Source: an uncultured Collinsella sp. (GTDB lineage: Bacteria; Actinomycetota; Coriobacteriia; Coriobacteriales; Coriobacteriaceae). From it: a DNA stretch of 31,479 nt. The notes beneath the pieces were generated by a model. It saw only the letters and a program-made list of their open reading frames with translations, did no database searches and was not told where the DNA came from. The DNA is taken from contig CAKTWW010000024.1 in the NCBI GenBank assembly GCA_934630855.1, positions 1-31,479 on the forward strand, read 5' to 3'. This document shows positions 1 to 26,066 of the stretch, one piece after another. The first letter of the stretch is position 1. The number at the start of each line of letters is the position of its first letter. The position numbers and the translations under genes were made by a program.

Positions 1-75
1 TGGAGCGGGCAACGGGACTCGAACCCGCGAGTGTCAGCTTGGGAAGCTGATGCCTTACCACTTGGCGATGCCCGC
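1..75 (-). tRNA. tRNA-Gly (anticodon CCC)
   Basis: Read on the minus strand, the sequence folds into a full cloverleaf. The acceptor stem pairs GCGGGC (70-75) with GCCCGC (5-10), the discriminator base is U and CCA is encoded (1-3). The anticodon stem TCAGC/GCTGA encloses the loop TTCCCAA, giving anticodon CCC, and the T-arm reads GTTCGAGTC. A U discriminator is usual for tRNA-Gly. A promoter lies just upstream (90-119). The gene ends at the first base of the window, so anything co-transcribed downstream is not visible. Confidence 0.95.
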
Positions 76-89
76 ATGTGTGTTTGGGT

Positions 90-119
90 AGTATAACGCG
101 GTTGTCTTGTTCGATACAA
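90..119 (-). promoter_or_regulatory. Promoter of tRNA-Gly
   Basis: On the minus strand TTGTAT (114-119) and TATACT (90-95) are separated by 18 bases and lie about 15 bases before the mature tRNA 5' end. The match to the sigma-70/SigA consensus is good at the -10 and moderate at the -35. The rest of the gap up to the adhesin start (about 120-360) is T-rich, with no other structure I could recognise. Confidence 0.6.
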
Positions 120-374
120 GGGTGACGATAGTTGTTTTAGCTGTGGAGAATCGTCTGAATTTTAAGTCAATTGTGAAGACAAGGACCTTTGGCTTTCGTT
201 TTTTGTCATCTTCTACCTGCTCTTTTGTTTCATTGTTTTTATACCGGCTAGATTTGTCAGAAATCGGTCAAGCTTTTGGTCGGCTTCCGGTACTTACCCG
301 CATGAACTCCGGCGGTAGCCTCATCCCACGCGCCGCAATCTCCCCGCGCGGCGCACGAGGGATAAGGAGCAGCC

Positions 375-3300
375 ATGTCCAACGCACCCACGCACTCTGT
401 CCACAGCGCAATCGTTACAGGTCCGCTGCTCCTGCTCCTCCTCTTACTCATCAGCTGCCTGGCTCCGGGACCCGCACTTGCTATCGACGGCTACGATCAG
501 CTCGGCTTCCGCACCATTAGCGACGATTGCGGGCCCTTCCTCATCGGAAAGTACGAAGCTCAAGACACTTCAATCGCGTACTGCATGAACCAGGATTGTC
601 CCGGACCCAGCAAGCCTGGAGGGCCGTGGCGTGCCTACGACCAAGGCTGGACGTGGCTCGACAACGAGTTCGCTGCCGTCGTCTGCCATGGATACCCCTC
701 CGCCACGTCGTTTGGCGGACACAACCTAACGCCCGACCGCGCCCGAGCCGCCACCCAGCTTGCCGTGTGGATGCTCAAAGGAACCACGCACCCCGACGGC
801 ACTTTTTCGTACACAAACAACGCCGGTATCCCCAGAAGTGGCAAGTTCACCCAAGACACCGAGATCGTAGCTGCGGCACGATGGCTCTATGACAATGCGA
901 AAGCCGGCAACATCAAAGCCGCGCCCCATCGAGCCAGACGCTACCACGCCCCCACCTCAAACGAGGGACGGCACCAAGACATGCTCTACGTTCTGCCCGC
1001 CGTTACCGTGTCCTTCGAGAAGCAGTCTGCGGACGTCACCATCACCAGCGGAAACGATATATACCAGCTAAACGGTGCCACCTTTGACATCTTTGAAAGC
1101 GCAAGCGACGCACGCGTCGGAACCATCCAGATGGACGAAAACGGGCGGGCGCAGGCGTCACTTCTGCCCAACACGGCCTACTATCTGTTGGAAACAAAGG
1201 CTCCGGCAGGCTACGCGCCACGTCGCGACCGTGTCGAGTTCACCACCTCGGGCGATGGCGGGCACGTCTCCATCGCCGAGATACCTGGCACCATTTCGCT
1301 GCGCATCGTAAAGCTCGACAAGGCGACGGGTGCCGGCCCCCAAGCAGGGGCATCGCTCTCCGGTGCCGAATTCACTTGCGTTTCGCAGTCAACACCGGGC
1401 TGGACGCGCATCCTCACCACCGACGACACCGGTCTGGCAACACTGAGCGATATCCCCTTGGGCACCTTTACCGTCTATGAATCGAAAGCACCCGAAGGCT
1501 ATCTGCTATCCGGTGAAACGTGGAGCTACACCGTCGGCGCCGATCAACTCGGCGATTCCGGTGTTATTGAACTCGAAAGCCGCGTTCCCGACACCCCCAT
1601 CGCCTTCGACCTTGAAATCTCAAAGTTTAAAGACCATGGCGACAGTAGCGAATCTGGCATCGAACAGCCGGCAGAGGGCGTTGCCTTTGAGATCGTTAGC
1701 AATAGCTCGCAGCAGGTTGTCGGCACGCTGACCACCAACGTCTACGGCTTCGCTTCGACCAAGGACCAACCCGATGCATGGTTTGGCGACGGTACACGGC
1801 CCGAAGGCGTTCACGGTGCCATCCCCTACGATCGAGCGGGCTACACCGTGCGTGAAGTTCGCGAAACCGTACCTGATGGATTTAAACAGGCGGGAGAATG
1901 GTCCATTTCTGCCGAGCAGATTGCCGACGGGGCGGTGCTGCAATACATCGTGGATAACCATGCCATATCGACACACCTGCAAATCGTAAAGCGTGACGCT
2001 CAAACGGGGAGCGCCGTGCCACTCGCCGGCTTCACCTTCCAACTACTCGACAGCAACCGTGAGCCCGTTTCCCAAACGTGTTGGTATCCAACCCATTCCG
2101 TCATGAACACCTTTACGACCGATAAAACCGGTTCCGTCACGTTGCCTGAGTCACTCCGTCCCGGCACCTACTACATTCGTGAGAAAGATGCCGCAGCCCC
2201 TTATCTTAGGGGAGAAGATCTTGAGCTTTCGATACCTGCCGATATGAACCTAACGCCCGTTGCCATCGCCTCGTTCTACGACCAACCGGCGATCGGCAAG
2301 ATCGAAATTGTCAAAAGTGACGCCGTAGACGGCGGCGCCCTGGCGGGAGCGGTCTTTGAGATTCGCGCGGCGGAAGATATCGTCCGCCCAGACGGCAGCA
2401 TGGTTGCCCTTGCAGGAGAGACGGTCGCAACCATCGAAACCGACGAGCAGGGAAAGGCCGACATCGATGGCCTTTCACTTGGTTGCGGCACGGCACATTA
2501 CGAGGTCGTTGAGGTAAACGCCCCCGAAGGATACCTGCTCGACCCGACGCCTCACGCCGTTGAGCTCACCTATGCCGACCAGGATACGCCGGTCATCTAT
2601 GCTCGAGTCGATGCTTCCAACGATTACACCAAGGTCGATATCTCCAAGACCGACGCCACCGACCAGGCAGAGATTGAGGGCGCACAGCTTACCCTCCTGG
2701 ACGCAAACGGAGAGACTATCGAAACCTGGACCTCGACCGCGACGCCGCATCGCATTGAGCGTCTTGCACCTGGCTCCTACACGCTGCGCGAAACGATGTC
2801 GCCGCGCACCTACGACACGGCCGAAGAAGTTACGTTCGAAGTGAAGGAAACCGGGGACGTCCAGAAGGTCGTCATGAATGATGCCCCCATTGAAATAAAG
2901 GGGAGGGTCGACAAACGCCAGGAAATTGCCCAGCCGGTCGCGAGTGGCTTGACGGCAAACGGCGACGGCAAGAACCGCGCCGCAACGCAATCCAATGCCC
3001 AGGGCGAGTTCGCCTACACCATCGACGCCCGCAACGAATCAAAAACCTGGGTTGATGAGTTTACGATCACCGATGAACTTGAATGCGCAGCCGCCGGAAC
3101 CGCTCGGCTCGTGAGCGTAGAAACGCCCGTCGCCGCGGGCGACTACGACGGACGATGCAACATATGGTATCGCACGTCCCCCGAACTTGAGCAAGACTGC
3201 GATGAGCAGATCAACGCCACACTCAGTGACGGACACGAGAATCCTTGGCTCGAAACGGATGAAGTTAAAAACCTCCTTGGCGAAGACGCGAGACTTGTCG

Positions 3301-14829: not shown

Positions 14830-15724
14830 CTTGGTCTCCCTGATCAAACTGAATCATTTCGCCAAGGATACGAGAAAGCTCTTCTTCGTCTTTGAACTCA
14901 ATCTCGATCTTGTTCTTTCCACGCGAGCTCTTCACGCGCACGTTCGTATTAAAAACTTGACGAAGTACGCGCGCGGCCTTTTTAAAAGACTGAGGCGTTG
15001 CAGGCCTCGGGGTCTTAGGTGTCTCTCCGGCAGAAAACAACGGAGCAAGATTTTCTGTCGCCCTGACGGAAAGACCTTCAGCGACAACTTTCTCGGCAAG
15101 TCGAATTCGTGCATCCTCATAGGGAACAGCCAGAATAGCGCGAGCATGACCGGCAGTAAGCTTGCCCTCAAAAATCATCTGTTGGACTATCTCAGGAAGA
15201 TCGAGGAGACGAAGTGAGTTAGTAATTGCAGAGCGCGATTTGCTTACAGCCTTTGACAATGCCTCCTGCGTCATACCGCTAGCATCGATGAGCTGACGAT
15301 AGCCCTTAGCCTCTTCGACAGGATTCAGGTCAGAACGCTGAAGATTTTCGATCAACGCAAGAGCAAGCATCTCTTCATCATTAACATCCTTAATGATGAC
15401 AGGCAGCTCCTCAAGACCAGCAAGCTTTGAAGCCTGGTAACGACGCTCACCAGCGATGATCTCATAGCCGTTTCCATGCTTGCGAACCAAGAGCGGCTGC
15501 AAAACGCCATGTTCTTGGATTGACTCGCTCAACTCGCGAAGTTCAGTTTCATTAAAGTGAATTCGCGGTTGATTAGGGTTGGGAACGATATCCTCAATAG
15601 GTAGTTTTGTTTCAGATGCGGCATTTGAAGCAGATGCAGACGAACCACCGGTCTCATACTCGGCCTCAGAGACCAAAGCATTGAGTCCACGCCCCAATCC
15701 GCCACGTTTCTTTGCACTAGGCAC
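14819..15724 (-). CDS. parB: Chromosome-partitioning CTPase ParB
   Basis: 301 aa. The basic N-terminus KKRGGLGRGLNAL is the ParA-contacting peptide. The CTP-binding/arginine-patch box GERRYQASKLAGL lies near residue 92, and the helix-turn-helix that reads parS follows (MTQEALSKAVSKSRSAITNSLRLL). A C-terminal dimer domain (VRVKSSRGKNKIEIEF) ends the protein. ParB loads at parS, slides as a CTP clamp and recruits SMC. The start is GTG at 15722-15724, 8 bp inside parA, with AGAGGTGAT just upstream. Cognate parS sites are present in the same window (16557-16650). Confidence 0.96.
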   Translation of the reverse strand: MPSAKKRGGLGRGLNALVSEAEYETGGSSASASNAASETKLPIEDIVPNPNQPRIHFNETELRELSESIQEHGVLQPLLVRKHGNGYEIIAGERRYQASKLAGLEELPVIIKDVNDEEMLALALIENLQRSDLNPVEEAKGYRQLIDASGMTQEALSKAVSKSRSAITNSLRLLDLPEIVQQMIFEGKLTAGHARAILAVPYEDARIRLAEKVVAEGLSVRATENLAPLFSAGETPKTPRPATPQSFKKAARVLRQVFNTNVRVKSSRGKNKIEIEFKDEEELSRILGEMIQFDQGDQDEE

Positions 15725-16517
15725 GCTTGATCACCTCTTTTGCAAGGTTCATATACGCTTTTGCACCCTTGTTTTGAGGTGCATAGGTAATTACCGGTTC
15801 TCCAAAAGACGGAGCTTCAGAGATTTTAACCGTACGGGGAATCAGCGTCTTAAACGCCTTATCACCAAAGTACGATTGAACTTCCTCAACAACCTGATTC
15901 GACAAAGAAGTACGTGAGTCATACATTGTCATAAGCACGCCATAGGTGTCTAAGCCCTTGTTCAGACGTGATTTGACCATCTTCATTGACTCAAGCAGCT
16001 TCGTAACACCCTCGAGTGCGTAATACTCACACTGGATTGGAATCAAAACGCTATCTGCTGCGGTCAAGGCATTGATAGTAAGCAGGCCGAGCGAAGGAGG
16101 ACAGTCAATGAAAATAAAATCGAACTCGTCCTGAATCGGCTCAAGCAAATCTTTAAGGCGGGTTTCACGAGCAATTGCGCTTACGAGCTCAATTTCTGCA
16201 CCTGCAAGCTGAATCGTAGCTGGAATTACGAATACCTTTTTGCAATTTGTATCAAGAACAAGCGATTCTGCCGGCACATCGTTCAACAATGCATCATAGA
16301 TGCAGTGATCAAGGTCTTCTTTTTCAATTCCAAATCCACTGGTACTGTTTCCCTGCGGATCAAAATCGACAATCAGAGTCTTACGACCCTGCTCACCCAG
16401 TGCTGCTGCAAGGTTTACAGCCGTCGTTGACTTACCGACGCCACCTTTTTGATTGATGATTGCAATGATACGCGTGTCTTTTGCGTTCTTAGAACGCTTA
16501 ACGTCGCGAAATCCCAC
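15717..16517 (-). CDS. parA: Chromosome-partitioning ATPase ParA (Soj)
   Basis: 266 aa. The deviant Walker A KGGVGKST (24-31) carries the signature lysine of ParA/MinD ATPases. DFDPQGNSTSGFG and FIFIDCPPSLGLL (Walker B) follow. It positions ParB-parS complexes and in Bacillus also acts on DnaA. The start is GTG with a strong AGGAGG five to six bases upstream. Three parS sites occupy the leader between this gene and rsmG, so ParB spreading may feed back on its own operon (inference). Base composition is visibly more A/T-rich than in the genes on either side. Confidence 0.97.
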   Translation of the reverse strand: MGFRDVKRSKNAKDTRIIAIINQKGGVGKSTTAVNLAAALGEQGRKTLIVDFDPQGNSTSGFGIEKEDLDHCIYDALLNDVPAESLVLDTNCKKVFVIPATIQLAGAEIELVSAIARETRLKDLLEPIQDEFDFIFIDCPPSLGLLTINALTAADSVLIPIQCEYYALEGVTKLLESMKMVKSRLNKGLDTYGVLMTMYDSRTSLSNQVVEEVQSYFGDKAFKTLIPRTVKISEAPSFGEPVITYAPQNKGAKAYMNLAKEVIKRA

Positions 16518-16556
16518 GGTCCCTCCTGGTGTGTATTAAAGCTGTCAAACGGAGGA

Positions 16557-16572
16557 TGTTTCACGTGAAACA
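16557..16572. promoter_or_regulatory. parS site 1 (perfect)
   Basis: TGTTTCACGTGAAACA is the exact 16-bp ParB-binding palindrome, 40 bp upstream of the parA start codon. It is the first of three at a 39-bp period. Confidence 0.95.
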
Positions 16573-16595
16573 TTCCGATTCGATATCAACCGCCA

Positions 16596-16611
16596 TGTTT
16601 CACGTGAAACA
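16596..16611. promoter_or_regulatory. parS site 2 (perfect)
   Basis: Identical 16-bp palindrome, start-to-start distance of 39 bp from sites 1 and 3. Confidence 0.95.
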
Positions 16612-16634
16612 CTGCAAGTTGTTAGTATCCATTA

Positions 16635-16650
16635 TGTTTCACGTGAAACA
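16635..16650. promoter_or_regulatory. parS site 3 (perfect)
   Basis: Identical 16-bp palindrome ending one base before the rsmG stop codon complement (16652). In many bacteria a parS lies inside the rsmG reading frame. Here it is just outside it. Confidence 0.95.
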
Positions 16651-16651
16651 T

Positions 16652-17389
16652 CTAGGCAAGCGGATTCTTCTTTGCCATGCCATTTGCACGAGGCAATGAA
16701 ACGGATGCTGGATGACTCTTTTTGAGCACAATAAACTCTCTATGACCTAAACCCTCAGGCAAATCAATTGAATCAGTCAGCAACTGGGTAAACCCACAGA
16801 TTTTTGCTGTAGACATTCCTGAAGCAAGCTCTTCATCGGAAGGAATACCTTTAGTGATAACAAAGAGTCCTCCATCCTTGAGATATGGGGCCGCATACTC
16901 AACAAGAACCGGTAGAGGAGCCAATGCACGGGCGGTCACTACAGAGAACTGTTTCTTATGGGATCGAGCATACTCTTCAAGGCGATCGTGAACTCCGCGA
17001 GCATGCTTCAATCCAAGAGCACGAACAAATGAATTGACTGCATCAACCTTCTTACCGACCGAATCAATATAGGTTGCCTTACGATGAGTAACTATCGTTA
17101 AAGGAATGCCTGGGAAACCTGCGCCTGTACCCATGTCGAGTAAAGCACCTTCTGGTGCCTGGTTAATATAGGGGAGCAATACCAACGAGTCCAGAATGTG
17201 AAGAACGGCAGCGTCTTCGATATTTAGGATACGTGTGAGATTGGTAGTCTTATTGGTCTCCAGAACAAGATCCAGATGCTGAATACAAGTACGAAGGTCA
17301 TTCTCGGAAACCTTCAAAGAATAGTCTTTGCAATACGAAATGAGACGGCTCAACATCTGATTCGCCTGCTCATCAGTCAATACAAACAA
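16652..17389 (-). CDS. rsmG: 16S rRNA (guanine-N7)-methyltransferase RsmG
   Basis: 245 aa from a TTG start at 17387-17389 with AAAGGAG five bases upstream. A longer open frame reaching 17500 would run back through the terminator of the upstream gene and has no ribosome site. The SAM-binding motif LLDMGTGAGFPGIPL and the downstream VTARALAPL segment identify RsmG (GidB), which methylates G527 of 16S rRNA. Loss of the enzyme gives low-level streptomycin resistance in other species. The gene is separated from jag by a strong terminator, so it needs its own promoter in about 50 bp, where I could not pick a convincing one. The trmE and gidA genes that often lie beside it are absent. Confidence 0.93.
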   Translation of the reverse strand: MFVLTDEQANQMLSRLISYCKDYSLKVSENDLRTCIQHLDLVLETNKTTNLTRILNIEDAAVLHILDSLVLLPYINQAPEGALLDMGTGAGFPGIPLTIVTHRKATYIDSVGKKVDAVNSFVRALGLKHARGVHDRLEEYARSHKKQFSVVTARALAPLPVLVEYAAPYLKDGGLFVITKGIPSDEELASGMSTAKICGFTQLLTDSIDLPEGLGHREFIVLKKSHPASVSLPRANGMAKKNPLA

Positions 17390-17440
17390 GACGACTCCTT
17401 TCTGACAAAAATCAGTGTATCGAGAACTTTTGACAAAAAA

Positions 17441-17468
17441 AAGGGGGACGTGGAAACCACGTCCCCTT
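17441..17468 (-). terminator. Terminator of the rpmH-jag operon
   Basis: GGGGACGTGG (17444-17453) pairs perfectly with 17457-17466 around the loop AAA, extended by a further A-T pair and a wobble. On the minus strand it is followed by eight T. This is a textbook intrinsic terminator 19 bp past the jag stop. Confidence 0.93.
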
Positions 17469-17486
17469 AGCATAAGCTCGAGTAGA

Positions 17487-18056
17487 TTATCGAGCAACAA
17501 TCACTACGTGACGATCGGGGTCAGAACCCTCGGAATGGGTATCAACCGCATCGTTGCCACGAAGTGCAATATGAACCAGTCGACGCTCATAGGCATTCAT
17601 AGGCGGAAGCGAAACACTCTTGTGAGTGCGAATAGCACGCTCGGCAGCAGACTGAGCCATAGATGCGACCTTGTCCTGACGGCGGCTCTTGTAGCCCTCA
17701 ACGTCCACCACAACCGGATACCTAAAGCCAAGCTTACGGCTTACCAGAAGCGAGAACATAACCTGAAGGGCATCAAGCGTACGACCGTGACGGCCGATGA
17801 GAACAGCAAGGTCAGGAGCCGTTACATCCAGAATCAGCTCGCCCTCATCGCCCTCATACTCATCGATAGGAGAGTTGGCGGCATCGAAGTGCGAAAGGAT
17901 GGAACGCAGAATAGAAATCGCAACATCGGCAATGGTGTCAAGCTCCTCATCGGTCAGCTCTTCACCAGCCTTGTAGCGCTGTGCAATCTCGGGATAATCG
18001 CCCGCAACCTGCGGGGCAACCTCCTCAAGCATATCCTCGATGATCTCTTCAGACAT
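17487..18056 (-). CDS. jag: RNA-binding protein Jag/KhpB (KH-R3H)
   Basis: 189 aa from the ATG at 18054-18056, preceded by GGAG at six bases. An acidic N-terminal part is followed by a KH domain with the GxxG loop in VLIGRHGRTLDALQ and an R3H domain with NAYERRLVHIAL near the C-terminus. The family (Jag, KhpB, EloR) binds RNA and, in streptococci, affects cell elongation and division. The classical N-terminal Jag domain is reduced to a short acidic segment. It is the last gene of rpmH-rnpA-yidD-yidC-jag. A 12-bp palindrome lies 16 bp before its start. Confidence 0.92.
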   Translation of the reverse strand: MSEEIIEDMLEEVAPQVAGDYPEIAQRYKAGEELTDEELDTIADVAISILRSILSHFDAANSPIDEYEGDEGELILDVTAPDLAVLIGRHGRTLDALQVMFSLLVSRKLGFRYPVVVDVEGYKSRRQDKVASMAQSAAERAIRTHKSVSLPPMNAYERRLVHIALRGNDAVDTHSEGSDPDRHVVIVAR

Positions 18057-19126: not shown

Positions 19127-19461
19127 CGCTCCTCCCCGGCAACGCCGGCGCGTTTCATAAGCGAACGCAACGCCTTGTCCATCTCCTGCGGCGAGGAAAC
19201 CCTCGTCTTGGGAGTTGCGAACAAGATGATGTCATAACCCGCAACGGGAAATCCGCAGCTGCGGGCGGCCTCGCGCATCACACGCTTAGAACGGTTGCGC
19301 ACGACCGCACAACCGAGCCGTTTAGCACCAACGAAGGCGACCCTTCCGGAGTCGCCTTCGCCAACCGATTCACATATGGTCATTCGAATCAGAGGGTGAT
19401 TGAAACGACGCCCCTGACTGAACACATGCTCGAAATCTTGCCGAGACTTAATAGTCTTCAT
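19123..19461 (-). CDS. rnpA: Ribonuclease P protein component
   Basis: 112 aa. The RNR motif is in GCAVVRNRSKRVMREAAR (Arg55-Arg60), and the N-terminus MKTIKSRQDFEHVFSQGRRF is typical. It is the protein partner of the RNase P ribozyme, which matures tRNA 5' ends. It is the second gene after rpmH, a near-universal pair. The rnpB RNA is not in the window. Confidence 0.95.
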   Translation of the reverse strand: MKTIKSRQDFEHVFSQGRRFNHPLIRMTICESVGEGDSGRVAFVGAKRLGCAVVRNRSKRVMREAARSCGFPVAGYDIILFATPKTRVSSPQEMDKALRSLMKRAGVAGEER

Positions 19462-19481
19462 GCGAGATGTGTGTATCGCTG

Positions 19482-19616
19482 CTAGACAGTGAGACGCTTG
19501 CGGCCCTTGGCGCGACGACGGGCGAGCACGGCACGACCACCCTTGGTGGCCATACGGGCACGGAAGCCATGGGTCTTGGCACGCTTACGCTTATTAGGCT
19601 GATACGTACGCTTCAT
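19482..19616 (-). CDS. rpmH: 50S ribosomal protein L34
   Basis: 44 aa ([20 protein letters not shown] and the basic C-terminus), an almost invariant protein. The ATG at 19614-19616 has AGGAGG about eight bases upstream. The longer open frame upstream adds an unrelated peptide and is rejected. It is the first gene of the leftward operon, driven by the promoter at 19689-19718. Confidence 0.97.
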
Positions 19617-19688
19617 CTTAAGTTCCTCCTGCTGCATTTCGAGTGTCCGCGGGGACGCGGACGCAGATATAGACACGTGAGCTTGAAG

Positions 19689-19718
19689 ATTGTAGGGAAA
19701 TCAATGTTCAAATGTCAA
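19689..19718 (-). promoter_or_regulatory. Promoter of the rpmH operon
   Basis: On the minus strand, perfect TTGACA (19713-19718) and TACAAT (19689-19694) are 18 bases apart, about 70 bases before the rpmH start. This is the strongest housekeeping-type promoter on the leftward side. Confidence 0.88.
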
Positions 19719-19815
19719 GAAATCAAAGGTAAAAGGTTGCAAAGAGTACACGGTTCCCCCATAAGCAGAATCGGTATTTGAGGCAGTGGGCAACTTTTCA
19801 CGATATTTCATCGAG

Positions 19816-19824
19816 TTTTCAACA
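19816..19824 (+). promoter_or_regulatory. Putative DnaA box TTTTCAACA
   Basis: Seven of nine positions match TTATCCACA. The same nonamer recurs at 19869, 21005 and (reverse) 23073. Confidence 0.55.
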
Positions 19825-19838
19825 GGTCATGTTGGCAA

Positions 19839-19847
19839 TGTTGAGAA
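19839..19847 (-). promoter_or_regulatory. Putative DnaA box variant TTCTCAACA
   Basis: One change from TTTTCAACA, in opposite orientation. A second copy is at 21035-21043 on the plus strand. Confidence 0.45.
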
Positions 19848-19868
19848 CTTTTCGTCCGATTTCCAAAG

Positions 19869-19877
19869 TTTTCAACA
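19869..19877 (+). promoter_or_regulatory. Putative DnaA box TTTTCAACA
   Basis: Perfect copy, directly followed by the inverted-like sequence TGTTTTGAAAAG, so two monomers could bind face to face. Confidence 0.55.
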
Positions 19878-19899
19878 TGTTTTGAAAAGTTGTCGAAAG

Positions 19900-19928
19900 A
19901 TGAGAAACATTGCACGGTGAGCTACTAT
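19900..19928 (+). promoter_or_regulatory. Weak candidate promoter for the GHKL gene-dnaA unit
   Basis: TACTAT (19923-19928) lies 17 bases after ATGAGA (19900-19905). The -35 match is only four of six. It is placed about 34 bases before the start codon and next to the DnaA-box cluster, which would allow autoregulation, but the call is tentative. Confidence 0.3.
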
Positions 19929-19961
19929 TTGTTCGAAACCTTTTGAAAGATTGCGAGCGGC

Positions 19962-21317
19962 ATGTCTGACGACTTTTACACCATGGTCGACTCCGGAGAT
20001 CCGGCACCCGACAACGAGCACATCACCGGCGTACGCGAAGAGCGCGACGAGGGTGAACAGACCGCAGTAAAAGCGCCGGCAGCGATGTATGCGGCGCGCA
20101 TAGCGGTATACGACGACATGCTGTCGACCCCGCGCGTGATCGTCATCGAGCCGCAAGACGTCCGCACGTATCTGGAAGAGACGACCAACACCGTCTACCA
20201 ATGCATGAAGGAGCAGGGCGGCCACATCTCGCTCATGGTCATTCGCGAGATTGTCGAAAACTTTATCCACGCTCACTTTGCAGAGCCCATCATCTCGATC
20301 CTGGACGGCGGAGACACGATTCGCTTTGCCGACCAGGGGCCGGGCATCGATGACAAGGAACGCGCCTTTGACTTTGGTGTGACCAGCGCAAACAGTAAGA
20401 TGAAGCGGTATATCCGCGGAACTGGAGCGGGTTTTCCCATGGTGCAGGAGTACCTGGAAAACGCCGGCGGCGCCGTCTCCATCGAAGACAACATGGGCAA
20501 CGGCACCGTGGTGACCGTGAGCCTGAACCCCAAGCGCGTGCAGGAAATCGAACGCGCCGGCGGGCGTGGCGCCGCCGTGCGCCCCGAGACCGAGCAGGCG
20601 GTCTATCCCCTGTCGGGAGCTTTTACACAGCAGCCCATGGCAGCACAGCAGCCACAACCGCCCATGATGCAGATGCAGCAGCCCGGTATGCTCCCTATGC
20701 AGGGATCCCCGGCGGCGTCGATGCCGGCGCTTTCAAACACTCCAGAGGGCATGCCTCCGACAGACCAGGATGTCGCCGCTCAACAATCGTCAGGCATGCC
20801 GGGCGGTCAGCAAATGGGTTATCAACCGTACCCGCAAGGGTATCCATACCAACAAGTACCGCAGCAGGGGTACGGGTACGCCCAGCAGTATCCGCAACAG
20901 TACCCGCAGGGATACCAACAGACATACCAGCAGATGCCTCAGCAGCAGTACAACCCATGGGTCCAGCAGGTACCGGCGCAGCCTTACCAGCAGTGGCCGC
21001 AAAGTTTTCAACAGCAGATGCCGCCCATACAGAGTTCTCAACAACCAGCAGCTCAAATGGTGTATCCTAATGCGGCGAATCAGTATGCACAGCCACAGCC
21101 GGACGTGTTCGTAAGCGACCGCGGCAACGCCGCGCTAGGCTATCTGGCGCAAAATCAGGCGTGCGGCGCAACCGATCTGGCGAGGGCGTTTGGAAATTCG
21201 GCCCCCACTTGGTCACGCACGCTCAATGATTTGGCACAGGCCGGCTTGGTCATCAAGCATGGCCAAAAATACCATCTGACCGAACTCGGCGCCGCTCGCG
21301 TGCGAGCTCAGAGCTAA
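19962..21317 (+). CDS. GHKL ATPase with Q/P/Y-rich linker and winged-helix domain, upstream of dnaA
   Basis: 451 aa. Residues about 60-190 form a histidine-kinase-like ATPase fold with N-box ENFIHAH (99-105), G1 box DQGPGI (124-129) and G2 box GTGAGF (153-158), ending in the strand GNGTVVTVSL. There is no DHp helix or phospho-accepting His domain, so it is a stand-alone GHKL module like SpoIIAB/RsbW rather than a sensor kinase. Residues about 208-380 are low complexity (Gln, Pro, Tyr, Met; QQYPQ-like units). Residues 385-449 are a MarR-like winged helix (ATDLARAFGNSAPTWSRTLNDLAQAGLVIKHGQKYHLTELGA). The gene begins in the origin region with a weak ribosome site and ends 15 bp before dnaA, so it is co-transcribed with it. 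I know no named family. Control of initiation or of the dnaA promoter is the natural hypothesis. Confidence 0.85.
   Translation: MSDDFYTMVDSGDPAPDNEHITGVREERDEGEQTAVKAPAAMYAARIAVYDDMLSTPRVIVIEPQDVRTYLEETTNTVYQCMKEQGGHISLMVIREIVENFIHAHFAEPIISILDGGDTIRFADQGPGIDDKERAFDFGVTSANSKMKRYIRGTGAGFPMVQEYLENAGGAVSIEDNMGNGTVVTVSLNPKRVQEIERAGGRGAAVRPETEQAVYPLSGAFTQQPMAAQQPQPPMMQMQQPGMLPMQGSPAASMPALSNTPEGMPPTDQDVAAQQSSGMPGGQQMGYQPYPQGYPYQQVPQQGYGYAQQYPQQYPQGYQQTYQQMPQQQYNPWVQQVPAQPYQQWPQSFQQQMPPIQSSQQPAAQMVYPNAANQYAQPQPDVFVSDRGNAALGYLAQNQACGATDLARAFGNSAPTWSRTLNDLAQAGLVIKHGQKYHLTELGAARVRAQS
21005..21013 (+). promoter_or_regulatory. Putative intragenic DnaA box TTTTCAACA
   Basis: Perfect copy inside the linker-coding part of the GHKL gene. 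The variant TTCTCAACA follows at 21035-21043 in the same orientation. It may serve as a titration site or as a site acting on dnaA expression. Confidence 0.4.
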
Positions 21318-21332
21318 AGGACGGGAGAGACA

Positions 21333-23057
21333 GTGGACGAGGAAGCAAGCATCATCCTGGGGGATGCCATCGCCTTTTGCCAGCGCGACGGCCAAGATGC
21401 ACGCCTCATCAACATGCTGGGGCAGTCGCGCGCCGTGAGCCTGACCGAAGACACGCTCACGATCGAGGCCCCTTCGCGCTTTGCCATCGCGCAGCTCAAA
21501 AAGCACCAACCGACGATCGAGGCCTATCTAGAGGAAATCGCCTTTGCGCCGATCGCGCTCGACATCGTGGCGCCGCAGAGTGCCACGGCTGATTCCGCTG
21601 CCGCAGCAGCACCCGCCGCTCCCCCGATTGCGACCGCAGCAGCCGCAACGACACCCGCGCGCAGGGCCGGTGATGTTTCCCGTGAAACCATGGGAGAGGC
21701 ACAGCAGGCGCCCGCGGCGCCGTCGGGCCCGGTGACATCAACGCCCGCGCCCGTCACGCATATGCCCATCGCCCACGACACGACGCCGGGCGAGGACTCG
21801 GGCATTGCGATCAAGAACACGCTTTCGGCCGACGACTTCCGCCGCATGATGAATCAGATGAAGGGCGGCGCGCCGGCAAAGACCGCGCACGCAGCGGCCC
21901 CCGCTACGCCTGCGGCGGCACCGGCGGCGCCGGCGGAGCAGAACGCAGACGGTGCCCCGCTCGCCGCAAACTCAAAATTCACCTTTGAGAACTTTGTCTA
22001 CGGCCCCGAGAACAGCCACGCCTATCGCTCGGCGCTCAAGTTCGCCGCTCTGGCGGACGAGCGCGGCACGTGCACGTCACTGTTCATCTACGGCAAATCG
22101 GGACTGGGCAAGACCCACTTGCTGCTCGCCATCAAAAATGAGCTCGCGGAGAAATCTCCCGAGATCAAGGTCAAGTATGCCAATTCCCAGGCGTACCTGG
22201 ACGACCTGATGACCGAGTTCGACCGTCAAAAGAAGAGCAACGCCCCCATCATGCAGGCATACCACGGCGTGGACGTGCTCATCATCGACGACATCCAAAA
22301 CATTATCGGCAAGCGCGCGAGCGTGGATTACTTTTTCCAGCTCATGGACGAGTTCATCCGCAACAACAAAAAGGTCGTGATCGCAGCCGATCGCGCACCC
22401 AAAGACTTGAGCATGGACGAGCGCTTGACCAGCCGCTTTAATGCCGGAATGCTCTGCTTGGTCGCAGAGCCCAGTTACGAGATGAAATACAAGATCTTGC
22501 AGCGCTATTACGAGAACACCATCGCCGCCGCGCCCGAGGCGGGCGATGATTCGCTGCTGGCGGCCTACGGGGGCGACGGCGGACACCTGACCGACGAGCA
22601 CTTTAAACACATGGCCGAGGTCTCGGGCACCAACATCCGCGAGCTCGAGAGCTTCTGCGAGCGCTGTGCCGGCGAGGCGGGCGACCGCGAACGCGAGGGC
22701 GGGGAGCTCACCTTTGACGATATCGACACCATCGCCAGTCAGTACTTCGACACGTCGGCCAAAAAGATCAACGTTCAGACAGTCCAGTCCGTCATCGAGG
22801 AGCAGTACGGCGTAACGCATGAGGAGCTCATCGGCCCGCGCCGTAACGCCAATATCGCCAAGGCGCGTCACATCGCCATCTATCTGGCGATTGAGATGTG
22901 CGAGATGACGACCACGGCGGTGGGTGCCGAATTTGGCAACCGCAACCACTCGACCGTCAGCACGAGCTACAAAAAAGTCCAGAAGATGATTCAGGAAGAC
23001 AGAACCGTCACCGAGGACCTCAAGTCACTACGAGACAAAATTACACTGCGCTCGTAG
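21333..23057 (+). CDS. dnaA: Chromosomal replication initiator DnaA
   Basis: 574 aa from a GTG start (GGGAG upstream), longer than the usual 440-520 because of an Ala/Pro-rich domain II (about 82-210). Domain I is residues 1-80. The AAA+ module has Walker A GKSGLGKT (254-261) and Walker B VLIIDD (315-320). Domain IV (about 478-574) keeps the general helix-turn-helix frame and an Arg (Arg512) aligned with E. coli Arg399. The DnaA signature reads GNRNHSTV (535-542) rather than GGRDHTTV, and the segment aligned with E. coli Leu422-Pro423 is Thr-Ala. A short insert (about 398-416) lies between AAA+ elements. Domain II encodes DVSRET across a parS-like sequence. It is second in the transcription unit and is followed by the right part of the origin. 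Confidence 0.97.
   Translation: MDEEASIILGDAIAFCQRDGQDARLINMLGQSRAVSLTEDTLTIEAPSRFAIAQLKKHQPTIEAYLEEIAFAPIALDIVAPQSATADSAAAAAPAAPPIATAAAATTPARRAGDVSRETMGEAQQAPAAPSGPVTSTPAPVTHMPIAHDTTPGEDSGIAIKNTLSADDFRRMMNQMKGGAPAKTAHAAAPATPAAAPAAPAEQNADGAPLAANSKFTFENFVYGPENSHAYRSALKFAALADERGTCTSLFIYGKSGLGKTHLLLAIKNELAEKSPEIKVKYANSQAYLDDLMTEFDRQKKSNAPIMQAYHGVDVLIIDDIQNIIGKRASVDYFFQLMDEFIRNNKKVVIAADRAPKDLSMDERLTSRFNAGMLCLVAEPSYEMKYKILQRYYENTIAAAPEAGDDSLLAAYGGDGGHLTDEHFKHMAEVSGTNIRELESFCERCAGEAGDREREGGELTFDDIDTIASQYFDTSAKKINVQTVQSVIEEQYGVTHEELIGPRRNANIAKARHIAIYLAIEMCEMTTTAVGAEFGNRNHSTVSTSYKKVQKMIQEDRTVTEDLKSLRDKITLRS
21674..21689. promoter_or_regulatory. Degenerate parS site inside dnaA
   Basis: TGTTTCCCGTGAAACC matches the parS palindrome at 14 of 16 positions and encodes DVSRET in the otherwise unconserved domain II linker. 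The VSRET-type coding of parS is known from other bacteria, where the DNA rather than the peptide is under selection. Confidence 0.6.
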
Positions 23058-23072
23058 GGAAATAGAGACACC

Positions 23073-23081
23073 TGTTGAAAA
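23073..23081 (-). promoter_or_regulatory. Putative DnaA box TTTTCAACA
   Basis: Perfect reverse-strand copy 16 bp after the dnaA stop codon, embedded in the 17-bp origin repeat. Confidence 0.55.
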
Positions 23082-23248
23082 CTTGTCGAAACCACGGGCA
23101 TAAGGTGTCTAAAACCCGACCCGCGGTGATGAAAAGTTTTGCGCAGGTTTTGAACGTGGAAAACGACCCCTGTTGCACACAGGCTACTGTCGATTCTCTT
23201 TCTGGGCCTGACCTGCGTCTTTGGGAGTAATCAACAGTTTCGTCAGTG

Positions 23249-23263
23249 CTATTACTATTATTA
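23249..23263 (+). promoter_or_regulatory. Possible DnaA-trio run and unwinding start
   Basis: CTATTACTATTATTA consists of five consecutive CTA/TTA triplets in the orientation known for the Bacillus unwinding element (3'-GAT-5' on the bottom strand). It lies 12 bases after a DnaA-box-like TAATCAACA and runs into an A/T-rich tract. Confidence 0.5.
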
Positions 23264-23295
23264 AGATATTTATATCTATAGAAAGGTATTAAAAG

Positions 23296-24399
23296 ATGAA
23301 GTTCACCGTCAGCCAGAGCTCGCTTACACAAGCTATCGGCGTCGTAATGAAGGGAGTCGCTTCGGCATCCACCCTTCCCATCCTTTCGGGCGTACTCGTT
23401 AAGGCGCAGGACGGCATCTTGGAATTCCAGACCTCTAACTACACCATCTCGATTCGTCATCGCATCGCGGCACATGTCGAAGAAGAGGGCGAGATGGTTA
23501 TCCCCTGCAAGATGCTCTCCAACATTACCAAGACGCTCCCCGACGCTCCGGTCACCTTTGAGCTGTCTGAACGCCAGGTGCTGATTGGGTGCGAGAAGAG
23601 CTCTTTTCGCCTGAACACGCTTGACGCCAACGACTTCCCTGAGTTTCCGGCCTATGCCATCGAGAGCGCCGTTGAGCTTCCGACCGACGTCCTGTCCGAA
23701 ATGGTCGGCCGCGTGTGGCGCGTCACCTCGACCGACAAGGCCCGCCCCATCCTGGGCGGTGTACACATGAAGGTCGAGAACAACACCGTGCGCCTGGTGG
23801 CGACTGACTCCTTCCGTCTTGCCGTATGCGATACGCAGGTCGAGACCTCGACCCTCGAGGGCTCCTTTGAGCTCAACGTTCCCGCCGACGCCTTCAACGA
23901 CGCTCTGAGCATTATGGCCAGCCAGGCCACCATCATGATCGGTGCCACCGACACCCAGGTCGTCTTTGAGGCCGGCAACACCACCTACGTCTCGCGCCGT
24001 ATCGAGGGCGTGTATCCCAACTACAAGCAGCTCATCCCCGATTCGTGCGTGACGAGCGTCAAGATCGACGTGGCTGCCTTCAGCGCCGCCCTCAAGCGTG
24101 TAGCGGTTATCGCGAGTGCCAACCCCGCCGTCAAGTTCGAGATCGACGTCGAGAACGGCCAGATGGGCCTGTCCTCCATCTCCAATGACCAGGATCTGGC
24201 GCAGGAGACGATCGATGTCGAGGCCGAGGGCGAGTCAGGCACCATCGCCTTCAACTACCACTACATCTTTGGCTGCCTAAACGCCCTGTCCAAGGAGAAG
24301 GAGATCACGCTGGAGCTCAAGAGCTACTCGCAGGCGGGCATCTTCAAGTCCTACGACAAAATCAACTACTTGTACCTGGTCATGCCGGTTCGCATCTAG
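23296..24399 (+). CDS. dnaN: DNA polymerase III beta sliding clamp
   Basis: 367 aa, the normal length for the three-domain clamp. The N-terminus MKFTVSQSSLTQAIGVV, the strand FRLAVCDTQ, the R-R-I-E-G-VYPNYKQLIP motif and the C-terminal YLVMPVRI are typical. It tethers DNA polymerase III to the template. AAAGG lies before ATG within the A/T-rich tract of the origin. The recF start follows 10 bp after the stop, so the genes are linked. Confidence 0.97.
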   Translation: MKFTVSQSSLTQAIGVVMKGVASASTLPILSGVLVKAQDGILEFQTSNYTISIRHRIAAHVEEEGEMVIPCKMLSNITKTLPDAPVTFELSERQVLIGCEKSSFRLNTLDANDFPEFPAYAIESAVELPTDVLSEMVGRVWRVTSTDKARPILGGVHMKVENNTVRLVATDSFRLAVCDTQVETSTLEGSFELNVPADAFNDALSIMASQATIMIGATDTQVVFEAGNTTYVSRRIEGVYPNYKQLIPDSCVTSVKIDVAAFSAALKRVAVIASANPAVKFEIDVENGQMGLSSISNDQDLAQETIDVEAEGESGTIAFNYHYIFGCLNALSKEKEITLELKSYSQAGIFKSYDKINYLYLVMPVRI

Positions 24400-24409
24400 C
24401 GGTCGCTCC

Positions 24410-25516
24410 ATGGCCATGTTCGCTCGCGATCTTTCCGTCGCACACTACCGCAGCTTCGATAGTTACCGCCTTGTCCTGGACGATGGCGTGACGGTGCTCG
24501 CGGGGCCCAATGCGGCGGGAAAGACCAATCTCATAGAGGCGCTGCAGCTGCTGACGAGCGGCGCCTCGTTTAGGCACCCGACCGCTACCGAACTGGTGCA
24601 TGACGGCGTGGGCTCATGCCGAGTCCAGCTGAGGCTCGAGGGCGATGGTCGCGTGCTGGACATGGGGCTGAGTGTGGAGGATAGCAAACGCTCGTTTAGT
24701 CGCAACGGCAAGAAATGCTCCGCCGCCGGTGTGCGCGGCGTGCTGCCGAGCGTGCTGTTTTGCCCGGACCACCTGGACATGGTCAAGCGAGGTGCCAACG
24801 TGCGCCGCGCCGCGCTCGACGACTTTGGCGTGCAACTGAGCGCGCGCTATGCCGATCTGGCAAGTGCCTACGGGCGTTGCGTGACCCAGCGCAACGCCCT
24901 TCTCAAGGAGAACTGGTGCTGCCGCGAGATGCTCGGCGCGTGGAATGACTCCATTGCCCGCGCCGGGTCTGCCTTGCTTGTGCATCGCTTGGCCTTGCTC
25001 GACCGGCTGGCGGGCCATGTGCGCGCCACGTATGGGCAGGTGGCGTCCGGCGAGGACGCCAACGTGTCCTATGTGTCCACGTTGGGGGATTTGCCCCAAA
25101 CCGATACACGCGAAGAGCTTAAAGACTGGGCGTACGAACGTATGCTCGCGGCTCTCGACGAGCACGCCGACGAGGAAATGCGCCGCGGCGTGACACTCGT
25201 GGGTCCGCATCGCGACGAGATCGAGTTTAGCGTGGCGGGGCGGTCTGCCCGCTCGTTTGCCAGCCAAGGCCAGCAGCGTACGCTGGTGCTGGCGTGGAAA
25301 GTGGCCGAGGTGGCGGTTGCCCGCGATATCCTGGGCACCGCGCCGCTGCTGCTTTTGGACGACGTGATGAGCGAGCTCGACGGTGAGCGCCGTGCCGCTT
25401 TTTTGCAACTGATCGGTGACGACATCCAGACGGTCATTACCACTACCAACTTGGGATACTTTACCGATGACCTGCTCGATCGAGCCAAGGTGGTGAGCAT
25501 GGGTGAGGCGTGCTAA
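24410..25516 (+). CDS. recF: DNA recombination and repair ATPase RecF
   Basis: 368 aa SMC-like ATPase. Walker A is GPNAAGKT (32-39) and Walker B is LLLLDDVMSELD near the C-terminus, preceded by the signature-like FASQGQQRTLVLAWK. The N-terminus YRSFDSYRLVLDDGVTVLAG is diagnostic. It helps load RecA at single-stranded gaps. Two ATGs (24410 and 24416) are possible. No clear ribosome site is seen, suggesting coupling to dnaN. Its end overlaps the next gene by 14 bp. Confidence 0.96.
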   Translation: MAMFARDLSVAHYRSFDSYRLVLDDGVTVLAGPNAAGKTNLIEALQLLTSGASFRHPTATELVHDGVGSCRVQLRLEGDGRVLDMGLSVEDSKRSFSRNGKKCSAAGVRGVLPSVLFCPDHLDMVKRGANVRRAALDDFGVQLSARYADLASAYGRCVTQRNALLKENWCCREMLGAWNDSIARAGSALLVHRLALLDRLAGHVRATYGQVASGEDANVSYVSTLGDLPQTDTREELKDWAYERMLAALDEHADEEMRRGVTLVGPHRDEIEFSVAGRSARSFASQGQQRTLVLAWKVAEVAVARDILGTAPLLLLDDVMSELDGERRAAFLQLIGDDIQTVITTTNLGYFTDDLLDRAKVVSMGEAC

Positions 25517-26066
25517 TTACGAGCGTGAAAACGGCACGGTTGCCTTTGGCGGCTTTTTGGATGCCGAGCGCCAGCGCATTCTGGCCGCGGCGACACCCGA
25601 GCGCCGTGCGCAGATGGAGGCCGCCGAGGAGTCGCGCGCGGTCTATCGCGCATGGAATGCCGTGTGTTCGGGCACGCGCGAGGGGCGCCATGTGACGGGC
25701 CTGCGCTATCTGCCCGAGTCTAATGAGCTGCTGGTATATCTCGATTCGCCCTCATGGACGCAGGAGATGACGCTGCTGCGCGAGATTATCCGCGCACGTA
25801 TGGAGCGCGCCGGGGCACATGTGGACGGCCTGGTGTTCAAAACGACCGCACCCGGTCACACGCCGCCGGCCGCCAGGGAGCGCTTACGTCCGGCCGTGGC
25901 CGAGCGCCCGCCGGCCCCGCATGCCGATCTGGATGATACCGAGCGCGCTGAGATTGAGCGCCAAGTGGCACCCATCGAAGACCAAAAACTGCGCGAGGCC
26001 CTCGAGAACGCCATGAGGGCCAGTGCCGAGTGGGCCAAGGGCGCACAAAGCAAAAAAGAGCCTTAA
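25503..26066 (+). CDS. dciA: DciA-like (DUF721) helicase-loading protein
   Basis: 187 aa from the GTG at 25503-25505, inside the end of recF with AAGGTGGTGAG upstream. The core (about 45-110: RAVYRAWNAVCSG, VTGLRYLPESNELLVYLDSPSWTQEMTLLREIIRARM) has the DUF721/DciA pattern of a KH-like fold. The C-terminal 70 residues are charged and probably flexible. DciA helps load the replicative helicase DnaB in bacteria lacking DnaC/DnaI. The position after recF and before gyrB matches the actinobacterial homologue (Rv0004 in Mycobacterium tuberculosis). The N-terminal 40 residues are family-atypical. Confidence 0.82.
   Translation: MRRANYERENGTVAFGGFLDAERQRILAAATPERRAQMEAAEESRAVYRAWNAVCSGTREGRHVTGLRYLPESNELLVYLDSPSWTQEMTLLREIIRARMERAGAHVDGLVFKTTAPGHTPPAARERLRPAVAERPPAPHADLDDTERAEIERQVAPIEDQKLREALENAMRASAEWAKGAQSKKEP

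Follow-up and report, generated by a model that had tools for sequence, protein, structure and literature searches.

The window, by which we mean the whole stretch of 31,479 nucleotides analysed here, carries a gene for a 451-residue protein between rpmH and dnaA (Table 1). The open reading frame runs exactly as the earlier note had placed it, and its position is likewise as described there, rpmH lying to the left on the opposite strand and dnaA starting 15 bp after the gene. The proposed operon with dnaA is also apparent, the two genes sharing a strand and being separated only by a short gap with a likely ribosome-binding site (GGGAG); this layout suggests that they are carried on one transcript and that their translation may be coupled. 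The arrangement of genes around dnaA ranks with the most stable known in bacteria, and rpmH is the classical partner of the dnaA region. A scan of positions 19400-23400 for sigma-70-type promoters returned no plus-strand site, so none before the gene; its one match (minus strand, 19718-19689) fits rpmH, and overall the scan found no more than in shuffled sequence.

Further to the left, G+C is ~0.47-0.48 over 15001-18000 versus 0.53-0.63 in the other 1.5-kb segments, and this stretch presumably corresponds to parB/parA to jag, by the names we assign to its open reading frames. An open reading frame after recF (25503-26066) looks by eye like DciA/DUF721, and if we take it to be such, a helicase-loading partner is probably also encoded in the cluster.

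Table 1. Features of the rpmH-dnaN region, with positions counted from the first letter of the window.
Feature	Position	Strand	Basis or remark
rpmH, left neighbour	19482..19676	-	open reading frame list; used as rpmH query
Left origin part and 5' region of the gene-dnaA operon, with DnaA-box-like sites	19677..19961		conserved among Collinsella
TTTTCAACA sites left of the gene	19816-19824; 19869-19877	+; +	exact matches
Box sites with one mismatch	19839-19847; 19880-19888	-; -	
Degenerate convergent DnaA-box dyad TTTTCAACATGTTTTGAAAA	19869..19888		inverted repeat
ATPase-winged-helix gene, 451 aa	19962..21317	+	ATG to TAA; open reading frame list, Pfam, AlphaFold2
N-terminal segment and GHKL ATPase fold, residues 44-200	20091..20561	+	Pfam, alignment, AlphaFold2
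GHKL boxes			N box E96-x3-N100; G1 D124-x-G-x-G128; G2 G153-x-G-x-G157
Low-complexity linker, residues 201-384, predicted disordered	20562..21113	+	pLDDT, dN/dS
C-terminal MarR-like winged helix, residues 385-451	21114..21314	+	Pfam, AlphaFold2, fold matches
Gap of 15 bp with likely ribosome-binding site GGGAG	21318..21332	+	ahead of the dnaA GTG (21333)
dnaA, 574 aa, Asn at the Asp433 equivalent	21333..23057	+	open reading frame list
Right origin part between dnaA and dnaN	23058..23295		TTTTCAACA at 23073-23081 (-)
DnaA-trio-like CTATTACTATTATTAAG before dnaN	~23249-23265		by eye
dnaN	23296..24399	+	open reading frame list; used as dnaN query

Structure prediction, which the earlier note had suggested for residues 60-190 and 385-449, gave confident folds at ~45-200 and 385-450 (AlphaFold2 monomer model from an alignment of 86 proteins), with pLDDT mostly below 50 over residues 202-376 and low confidence in the ~44 N-terminal residues. 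The picture of a winged helix joined to a GHKL domain through a linker is thereby borne out, and both domains are also clear in the model of a short-linker relative, P0138 (79 sequences, mean pLDDT 82.6). The N-terminal domain falls in the GHKL (HATPase_c) superfamily, PF02518 covering residues 93-189 (E 1.1e-10; 42.4 bits versus a cut-off of 26.4) and being matched by all 79 relatives at E 0.01. Together with the conserved box residues, this match agrees with the original description of a stand-alone GHKL ATPase that has intact N, G1 and G2 boxes, and no DHp-type domain appears among the Pfam matches. Among 84 homologues from the class Coriobacteriia, N100, D124, G126, G128, G153, G155 and G157 are kept in every sequence and E96 in 80, and the N-box consensus reads IREVVENFIHA, including a conserved His.

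The C-terminal domain is a winged helix by its fold (recognition helix and wing), while the sequence scores of the window protein stay below the family cut-offs over residues 386-445 (PF25213, 31.7 bits versus 35; MarR_2, 21.7 versus 27). The TrmB model scores above its cut-off for P0138 (27.2 versus 25.6 bits) and is matched by 68 of the 79 relatives at E 0.01. A recognition-helix Arg and a wing Lys-Arg are invariant in the 79 short-linker relatives, and the window's own lineage carries TWSRTL and GQKYHL at these respective positions. Lineage f37 seems, from its sequences, to have an altered recognition helix, and DNA binding may therefore not be shared by the whole family.

The linker, rich in Q, P, A, G and Y and predicted by AlphaFold2 to be disordered, is the fastest-evolving region of the protein. 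Mean dN/dS over 210 pairs of 21 Collinsella sequences was 0.187 in the linker, 0.165 in the N-terminus, 0.069 in the winged helix and 0.015 in the GHKL domain; the corresponding means for DnaA (19 sequences, 171 pairs) were 0.204 in domain II, 0.067 in domain I and 0.011 in domains III-IV, such that the GHKL domain is constrained within Collinsella nearly like domains III-IV of the initiator. Linker length has a median of 164 residues in the family to which the window belongs, as against 104.5 and 86 in the order's two other large families, 30 elsewhere in the class and 20 beyond it. Given these lineage-specific lengths, short outside the big Coriobacteriales families, the long linker is a late elaboration. 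The suggestion that it drives self-association at the origin consequently does not hold as a core mechanism and would describe a lineage extra at most, and a general role as condensate driver was rejected because the linker is short in the deep families of the class and beyond it.

No family covering the whole protein was found in NCBIfam or Pfam for the window protein or the 79 relatives. Database names, drawn from the best 120 of 4065 and the best 120 of 1605 proteins, include 'ATP-binding protein', 'histidine kinase', 'anti-sigma regulatory factor', 'ArsR family regulator', 'HTH domain-containing protein' and 'hypothetical'. In the open-licence PMC literature, judged by titles and the beginnings of abstracts, we recognised no paper on the gene.

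Distribution of the gene and its linkage with dnaA

The nearest relatives found come from Collinsella aerofaciens and related Collinsella (20 loci, 81-90% identical). All 43 Collinsella genomes have a match and 42 a clear homologue, the exception being an assembly 87% complete (G036) whose best match is kinase-like (E 7.7e-6). Across Coriobacteriia a homologue is present in 216 of 246 genomes at E 1e-12; among the 219 genomes that are 90% or more complete and no more than 5% contaminated, 205 have one. When a 24-sequence profile was run against 296 genomes of the phylum (E 1e-8, with up to eight candidates scored per genome, so that misses are possible), 144 gave a match and 152 none. Strong matches (E 3.3e-23 or better) account for 119 of the 144, 26 of them in Coriobacteriia and 93 outside, and the 25 weak ones are kinase-like (E 1.7e-11 to 1e-8), which leaves 177 genomes with no strong homologue. 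The outside lineages include Rubrobacter, where database protein P0243, 'ATP-binding protein [Rubrobacter xylanophilus]', equals the product of locus L231 but for the first residues. Its recurrence in 216 class genomes and in 93 phylum genomes beyond the class shows that the gene is not a chance reading frame. A tblastn search with P0138 (E 1e-5) found no match among 72,556 plasmid and 50,697 phage records, and distances between the gene products correlate positively but moderately with those between the DnaA proteins (Mantel r 0.363, n=118; maximum of 999 permutations 0.144); a mobile or horizontally acquired gene was rejected on these grounds.

Homologues lying mostly apart from dnaA had been named beforehand as an observation that would overturn the original proposal, and the genomes compared show the opposite. 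In the 146 homologue-bearing genomes (of 216) in which the places of gene and dnaA were compared, 141 have the gene directly 5' of dnaA on the same strand, 133 of them on one contig and 8 across a contig start. The remaining five are two divergent neighbours (G135, G204), two cases on other contigs (G131, G134) and one genome with no dnaA match (G159). Outside the class, 80 of the 93 strong-match genomes were compared using a DnaA-specific family, and 74 show the same arrangement (in 69 the gene precedes dnaA on its strand, and in 5 the pair spans a contig start), with gene and dnaA on different contigs in the other 6 and no contrary case. In all 13 cross-start cases dnaA opens the contig and the gene match stops 23 to 779 bases short of that contig's end, as would be expected of a circular chromosome opened between or beside the two genes. 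The notion of an insertion into the dnaA locus must therefore be recast, since it is not a recent one: this is an old dnaA-operon gene across Coriobacteriia, Rubrobacter and other lineages of Actinomycetota, and with its adjacency to dnaA in 74 of the 80 genomes checked outside, the family is older than the class.

The surroundings of the pair are also widely kept, rpmH preceding the gene on the opposite strand in 64 of the 84 class loci and in 30 of the 36 from outside, and the full order rpmH(-) gene(+) dnaA(+) dnaN(+) being seen in 61 of the 84 and 22 of the 36; many of the others are loci that end early. The gene and dnaA are inverted as a unit relative to dnaN in 11 of the 84 class loci (and relative to rpmH too in the 10 loci that show it). 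All of these belong to family f5 (L131, L134, L135, L138, L141, L142, L146, L150, L153, L156 and L157), within which the region has evidently been turned around. Even where gene and dnaA are divergent (L257, L258), the gene remains next to the box-bearing stretch ahead of dnaA, and box-like half sites lie between the two.

The distance from gene stop to dnaA start ranges from -14 to 302 bp in 81 class loci (median 46, six at -4) and from -10 to 73 bp in 36 outside loci (median 12, two at -4), start codons having been chosen by rule such that some gaps may be overestimates. The linkage could be there for nothing more than shared expression or translational coupling, and it is here that one alternative has to be weighed, in which the protein is an ordinary transcription factor with targets elsewhere, kept beside dnaA for gene dosage or because dnaA came to be translated through it as a 5' leader, and not for any action on replication. 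Coupling alone would fix the linkage given the 4-bp overlaps in six class and two outside loci, the winged-helix fold is generic to transcription factors, and the gene can be lost. We nevertheless consider this account rather unlikely, as the linkage persists over gaps of up to 302 bp (with rule-chosen starts), at which coupling is unlikely, it is kept in two genomes where the gene is inverted relative to dnaA, and no homologue was found elsewhere on a dnaA-bearing contig among the genomes compared.

Clean losses were found in at least six class genomes (loci L250-L255, corresponding to G161, G070, G051, G063, G054 and G099), where rpmH stands beside dnaA with no homologue between them and both dnaA and dnaN are kept. 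These six losses point to a regulator as opposed to core machinery, and, taken with a strong match in only 119 of 296 phylum genomes, they indicate that the gene is not needed for initiation in general.

DnaA boxes and the region upstream of the gene

The earlier note had the gene flanked by DnaA-box-like sites, and this holds for one form of the box but not for the other. Exact TTTTCAACA, the form of the box in this lineage, is found four times in the 31.5 kb, each time within 19816-23081 (twice between rpmH and the gene, once in the linker-coding part and once just after dnaA), versus a chance mean of 0.16 and with none of 100 shuffles reaching four, whereas the canonical TTWTNCACA occurs once in the window, which is no more than chance. 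The CTATTACTATTATTAAG stretch before dnaN resembles the DnaA-trio pattern as given in an excerpt of PMC7561715. With boxes or trio on both sides of the gene-dnaA pair, the origin looks bipartite and the pair appears to lie between its halves, in keeping with the place first proposed for the gene, inside the origin between the left boxes and dnaA. According to excerpts of PMC8203912, B. subtilis and H. pylori have bipartite origins with dnaA between the parts, and autoregulation by DnaA at its own promoter has been confirmed in several species.

A search for an operator in the sequence upstream of the gene, by masked k-mer and inverted-repeat scans, gave the palindrome TTTC(C/A)ACA-N2-TGT(G/T)GAAA. 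Its strict form, TTTCMACA-N(1-3)-TGTKGAAA, is found in 52 of the 296 phylum genomes (the reversed control had no match), once per genome in 51 of them and twice in G504. A strong homologue is held by 35 of the 52, and in 34 of these the dyad lies 146-327 bp upstream of the profile match, being on another contig than the gene in G440. Of the 17 dyad genomes that have no strong homologue, 15 (L260-L274) carry it at dnaA beside rpmH, at or up to ~220 bp before the candidate dnaA start (start codons being uncertain), with no profile match nearby; the sites in G504 and G513 are on contigs without a dnaA match. When a slightly different pattern was used, the dyad appeared 61-243 bp ahead of the start of the gene in 28 of the 117 loci that have the gene (7 of the 81 class loci), and in none of the 117 did a dyad lie within the gap between gene and dnaA. 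Since the same dyad stands at dnaA in genomes that lack the gene, the palindrome was rejected as an operator of the winged helix and belongs to DnaA and oriC, not specifically to the gene product; the upstream scans yielded no other operator. The presence of the dyad in the dnaA 5' region with or without the gene does place the gene between the origin boxes and dnaA. Upstream of the gene (in 117 loci and the window), convergent half sites favour spacings of 2 and 14 bp, and a third half site often stands 4 bp beyond the convergent dyad.

As a separate observation, DnaA of the window reads GNRNHSTV around the equivalent of Asp433, a residue that is highly conserved and tied to box position 7 according to an excerpt of PMC8235120. 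Asn, Ser, Thr, Lys or His takes its place in 30 of 118 loci (L101-L249 and the window; one more was not alignable), in at least three separate lineages. The boxes of these 30 loci comprise 74 TTNTCAACA and 12 TTNTCCACA, versus 90 and 230 in the 87 loci with Asp, counts that ignore the relatedness of the loci. This looks like repeated co-drift of initiator and box, with the caveat that the change seen is at box position 6, not at the position 7 to which PMC8235120 ties Asp433.

Comparison with known GHKL and winged-helix proteins

The top VIA match of both models is PDB 3lmm, DIP2311 from Corynebacterium diphtheriae, a Schlafen AlbA_2 - HATPase_c_4 - HTH protein of the COG2865 kind (window model 38..451 on chain 232..500). 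Foldseek likewise ranks 3lmm first for the P0138 model; it is not among the best 50 matches listed for the window model, nor, by sequence, among the 60 profile matches to solved structures listed. Like DIP2311, the window protein has a GHKL fold followed by a C-terminal winged helix, but neither AlbA_2 nor HATPase_c_4 is among the Pfam matches of the window protein or the 79 relatives (0 of 79 for HATPase_c_4). For the GHKL part most other fold matches are histidine-kinase catalytic domains, and for the C-terminal part they are MarR-type winged helices; a sequence search of solved structures gave weak matches to sporulation kinase B, CheA, other kinases and MutL, and weaker ones to GyrB.

The protein thus resembles the CA domains of histidine kinases in its above-cut-off HATPase_c match and in most other fold matches of its GHKL part, and differs from these kinases in its C-terminal winged helix and in an N box that starts with Glu (E-x3-N). 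No DHp or HisKA-type model is present among the 12 Pfam matches of the window protein (E 1) or the 20 families matched by the 79 relatives (E 0.01); judged by these domain matches, it is not a sensor histidine kinase, which would have a DHp domain with a phospho-acceptor His. From regulators of the MarR, TrmB and IclR types it is set apart by the attached GHKL ATPase domain and by scores below the family cut-offs.

A stand-alone GHKL domain with E-x3-N and a conserved N-box His is also shared with SpoIIAB/RsbW, and a partner-switching kinase of this type might phosphorylate or hold DnaA or another regulator while the winged helix docks or tethers it to DNA. In line with this, 13 of the 79 relatives weakly match NCBIfam TIGR01925 spIIAB (best E 1.4e-5, cut-off not shown), and several database names among the matches listed read 'anti-sigma regulatory factor (Ser/Thr protein kinase)'. 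On the other hand, PF13581 (HATPase_c_2), the SpoIIAB/RsbW-type model, is unmatched among the 12 and 20 Pfam families named above (0 of 79 relatives at E 0.01), the listed structural matches are histidine-kinase catalytic domains and DIP2311, and the window protein has a winged helix, which SpoIIAB/RsbW are not known to carry, while no anti-anti-sigma partner is known, the neighbours compared across the loci being rpmH, dnaA and dnaN. SpoIIAB itself is not among the fold matches listed for either model, an absence that excludes nothing. Overall we find such a kinase distinctly improbable.

GHL-type ATPases such as GyrB and MutL are DNA clamps, and the E-x3-N box common to them (and to Hsp90; E96 in 80 and N100 in 84 of 84 homologues, the equivalence being drawn by eye) raises the thought of an origin-organising or segregation factor, a clamp-like GHKL dimer that would bridge origin DNA by its winged helices, possibly with ParB, and not control DnaA. 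The weak GyrB and MutL sequence matches, the location at the origin and the low-complexity linker of Coriobacteriales are consistent with such a factor. We hold it to be very unlikely, given that no transducer domain follows the GHKL domain (residues 202-376 are predicted disordered, and the median linker outside the class is 20 residues), that the linker is short in the deep families of the class as well as outside it, and that the tight association is with dnaA itself. The task we propose below, restraining or timing DnaA, is that of YabA, Soj, SirA, SeqA and Hda. None of these is known to contain a GHKL domain or to be encoded at the head of the dnaA operon, and their families are absent from the Pfam matches of the window protein and the 79 relatives.

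A candidate regulator in the dnaA operon

On balance we think it probable, with ample room for doubt, that the first gene of the dnaA operon encodes a nucleotide-switched DNA-binding regulator. This reading draws on same-strand adjacency in 141 of 146 class and 74 of 80 outside genomes, on the short gaps with six 4-bp overlaps in the class, on the joint inversion of gene and dnaA in 11 of 84 class loci, on the bordering of the box-bearing region even in the divergent L257 and L258, on the position between origin boxes and dnaA (dyad upstream in 34 of 35), on GHKL constraint near that of DnaA III-IV with near-invariant catalytic-type residues, and on the lack of relatives on plasmids or phages. 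Its DNA-binding part is suggested by the MarR-like winged helix, whose best fold matches are DNA-binding regulators, and by the invariant Arg and Lys-Arg of the relatives. Weighing against it are the fruitless operator search, the six clean losses, the changed helix of f37, the 177 of 296 genomes with no strong homologue, the below-cut-off winged-helix scores of the window protein and the lack of a sigma-70-type promoter before the gene. As no operator was found and the only conserved upstream palindrome also stands at dnaA where the gene is missing, a role in dnaA expression and/or initiation is one that we infer from position and anatomy.

If the gene and dnaA do share one transcript with coupled translation, a mechanism can be envisaged as follows. 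The GHKL domain would bind and probably hydrolyse ATP, as its E-x3-N N box and intact G boxes suggest, and its dimer state might change with ATP or ADP as in other E-x3-N GHKL ATPases. The winged helix, by virtue of its fold, would bind DNA at the origin and dnaA 5' region, the target being, from the operon position, the dnaA 5' region and oriC or DnaA. The ATP state could then set repression versus permission of dnaA expression and/or DnaA assembly at oriC, which would provide a second energy-sensing switch besides the ATP switch of DnaA itself. Whether the protein further represents the founding member of a new class of initiation regulators, a GHKL-winged-helix ATP/ADP switch that has been in the dnaA operon since early actinomycetotal evolution and acts on the dnaA 5' region and oriC as a second nucleotide switch alongside DnaA, is a tentative proposal that we would sooner question than assert.

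An unstudied and highly conserved protein that joins a predicted ATP-binding domain to a putative DNA-binding domain is thus encoded directly before dnaA, and since it stays there across much of the phylum, the gene is a strong candidate for a replication regulator that has so far been missing. We found no description in the open-licence PMC literature of how initiation is restrained in deep Actinomycetota (the gut Collinsella and their order, and Rubrobacter), and a gene tied to dnaA in the sampled lineages and constrained almost like dnaA within Collinsella could be that regulator. Rubrobacter offers a harmless and culturable host in which to test the gene, and its natural losses in related genomes provide ready comparisons of DnaA and oriC with and without it. 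If the GHKL switch is real, ATP sensing at initiation would not depend on DnaA alone.
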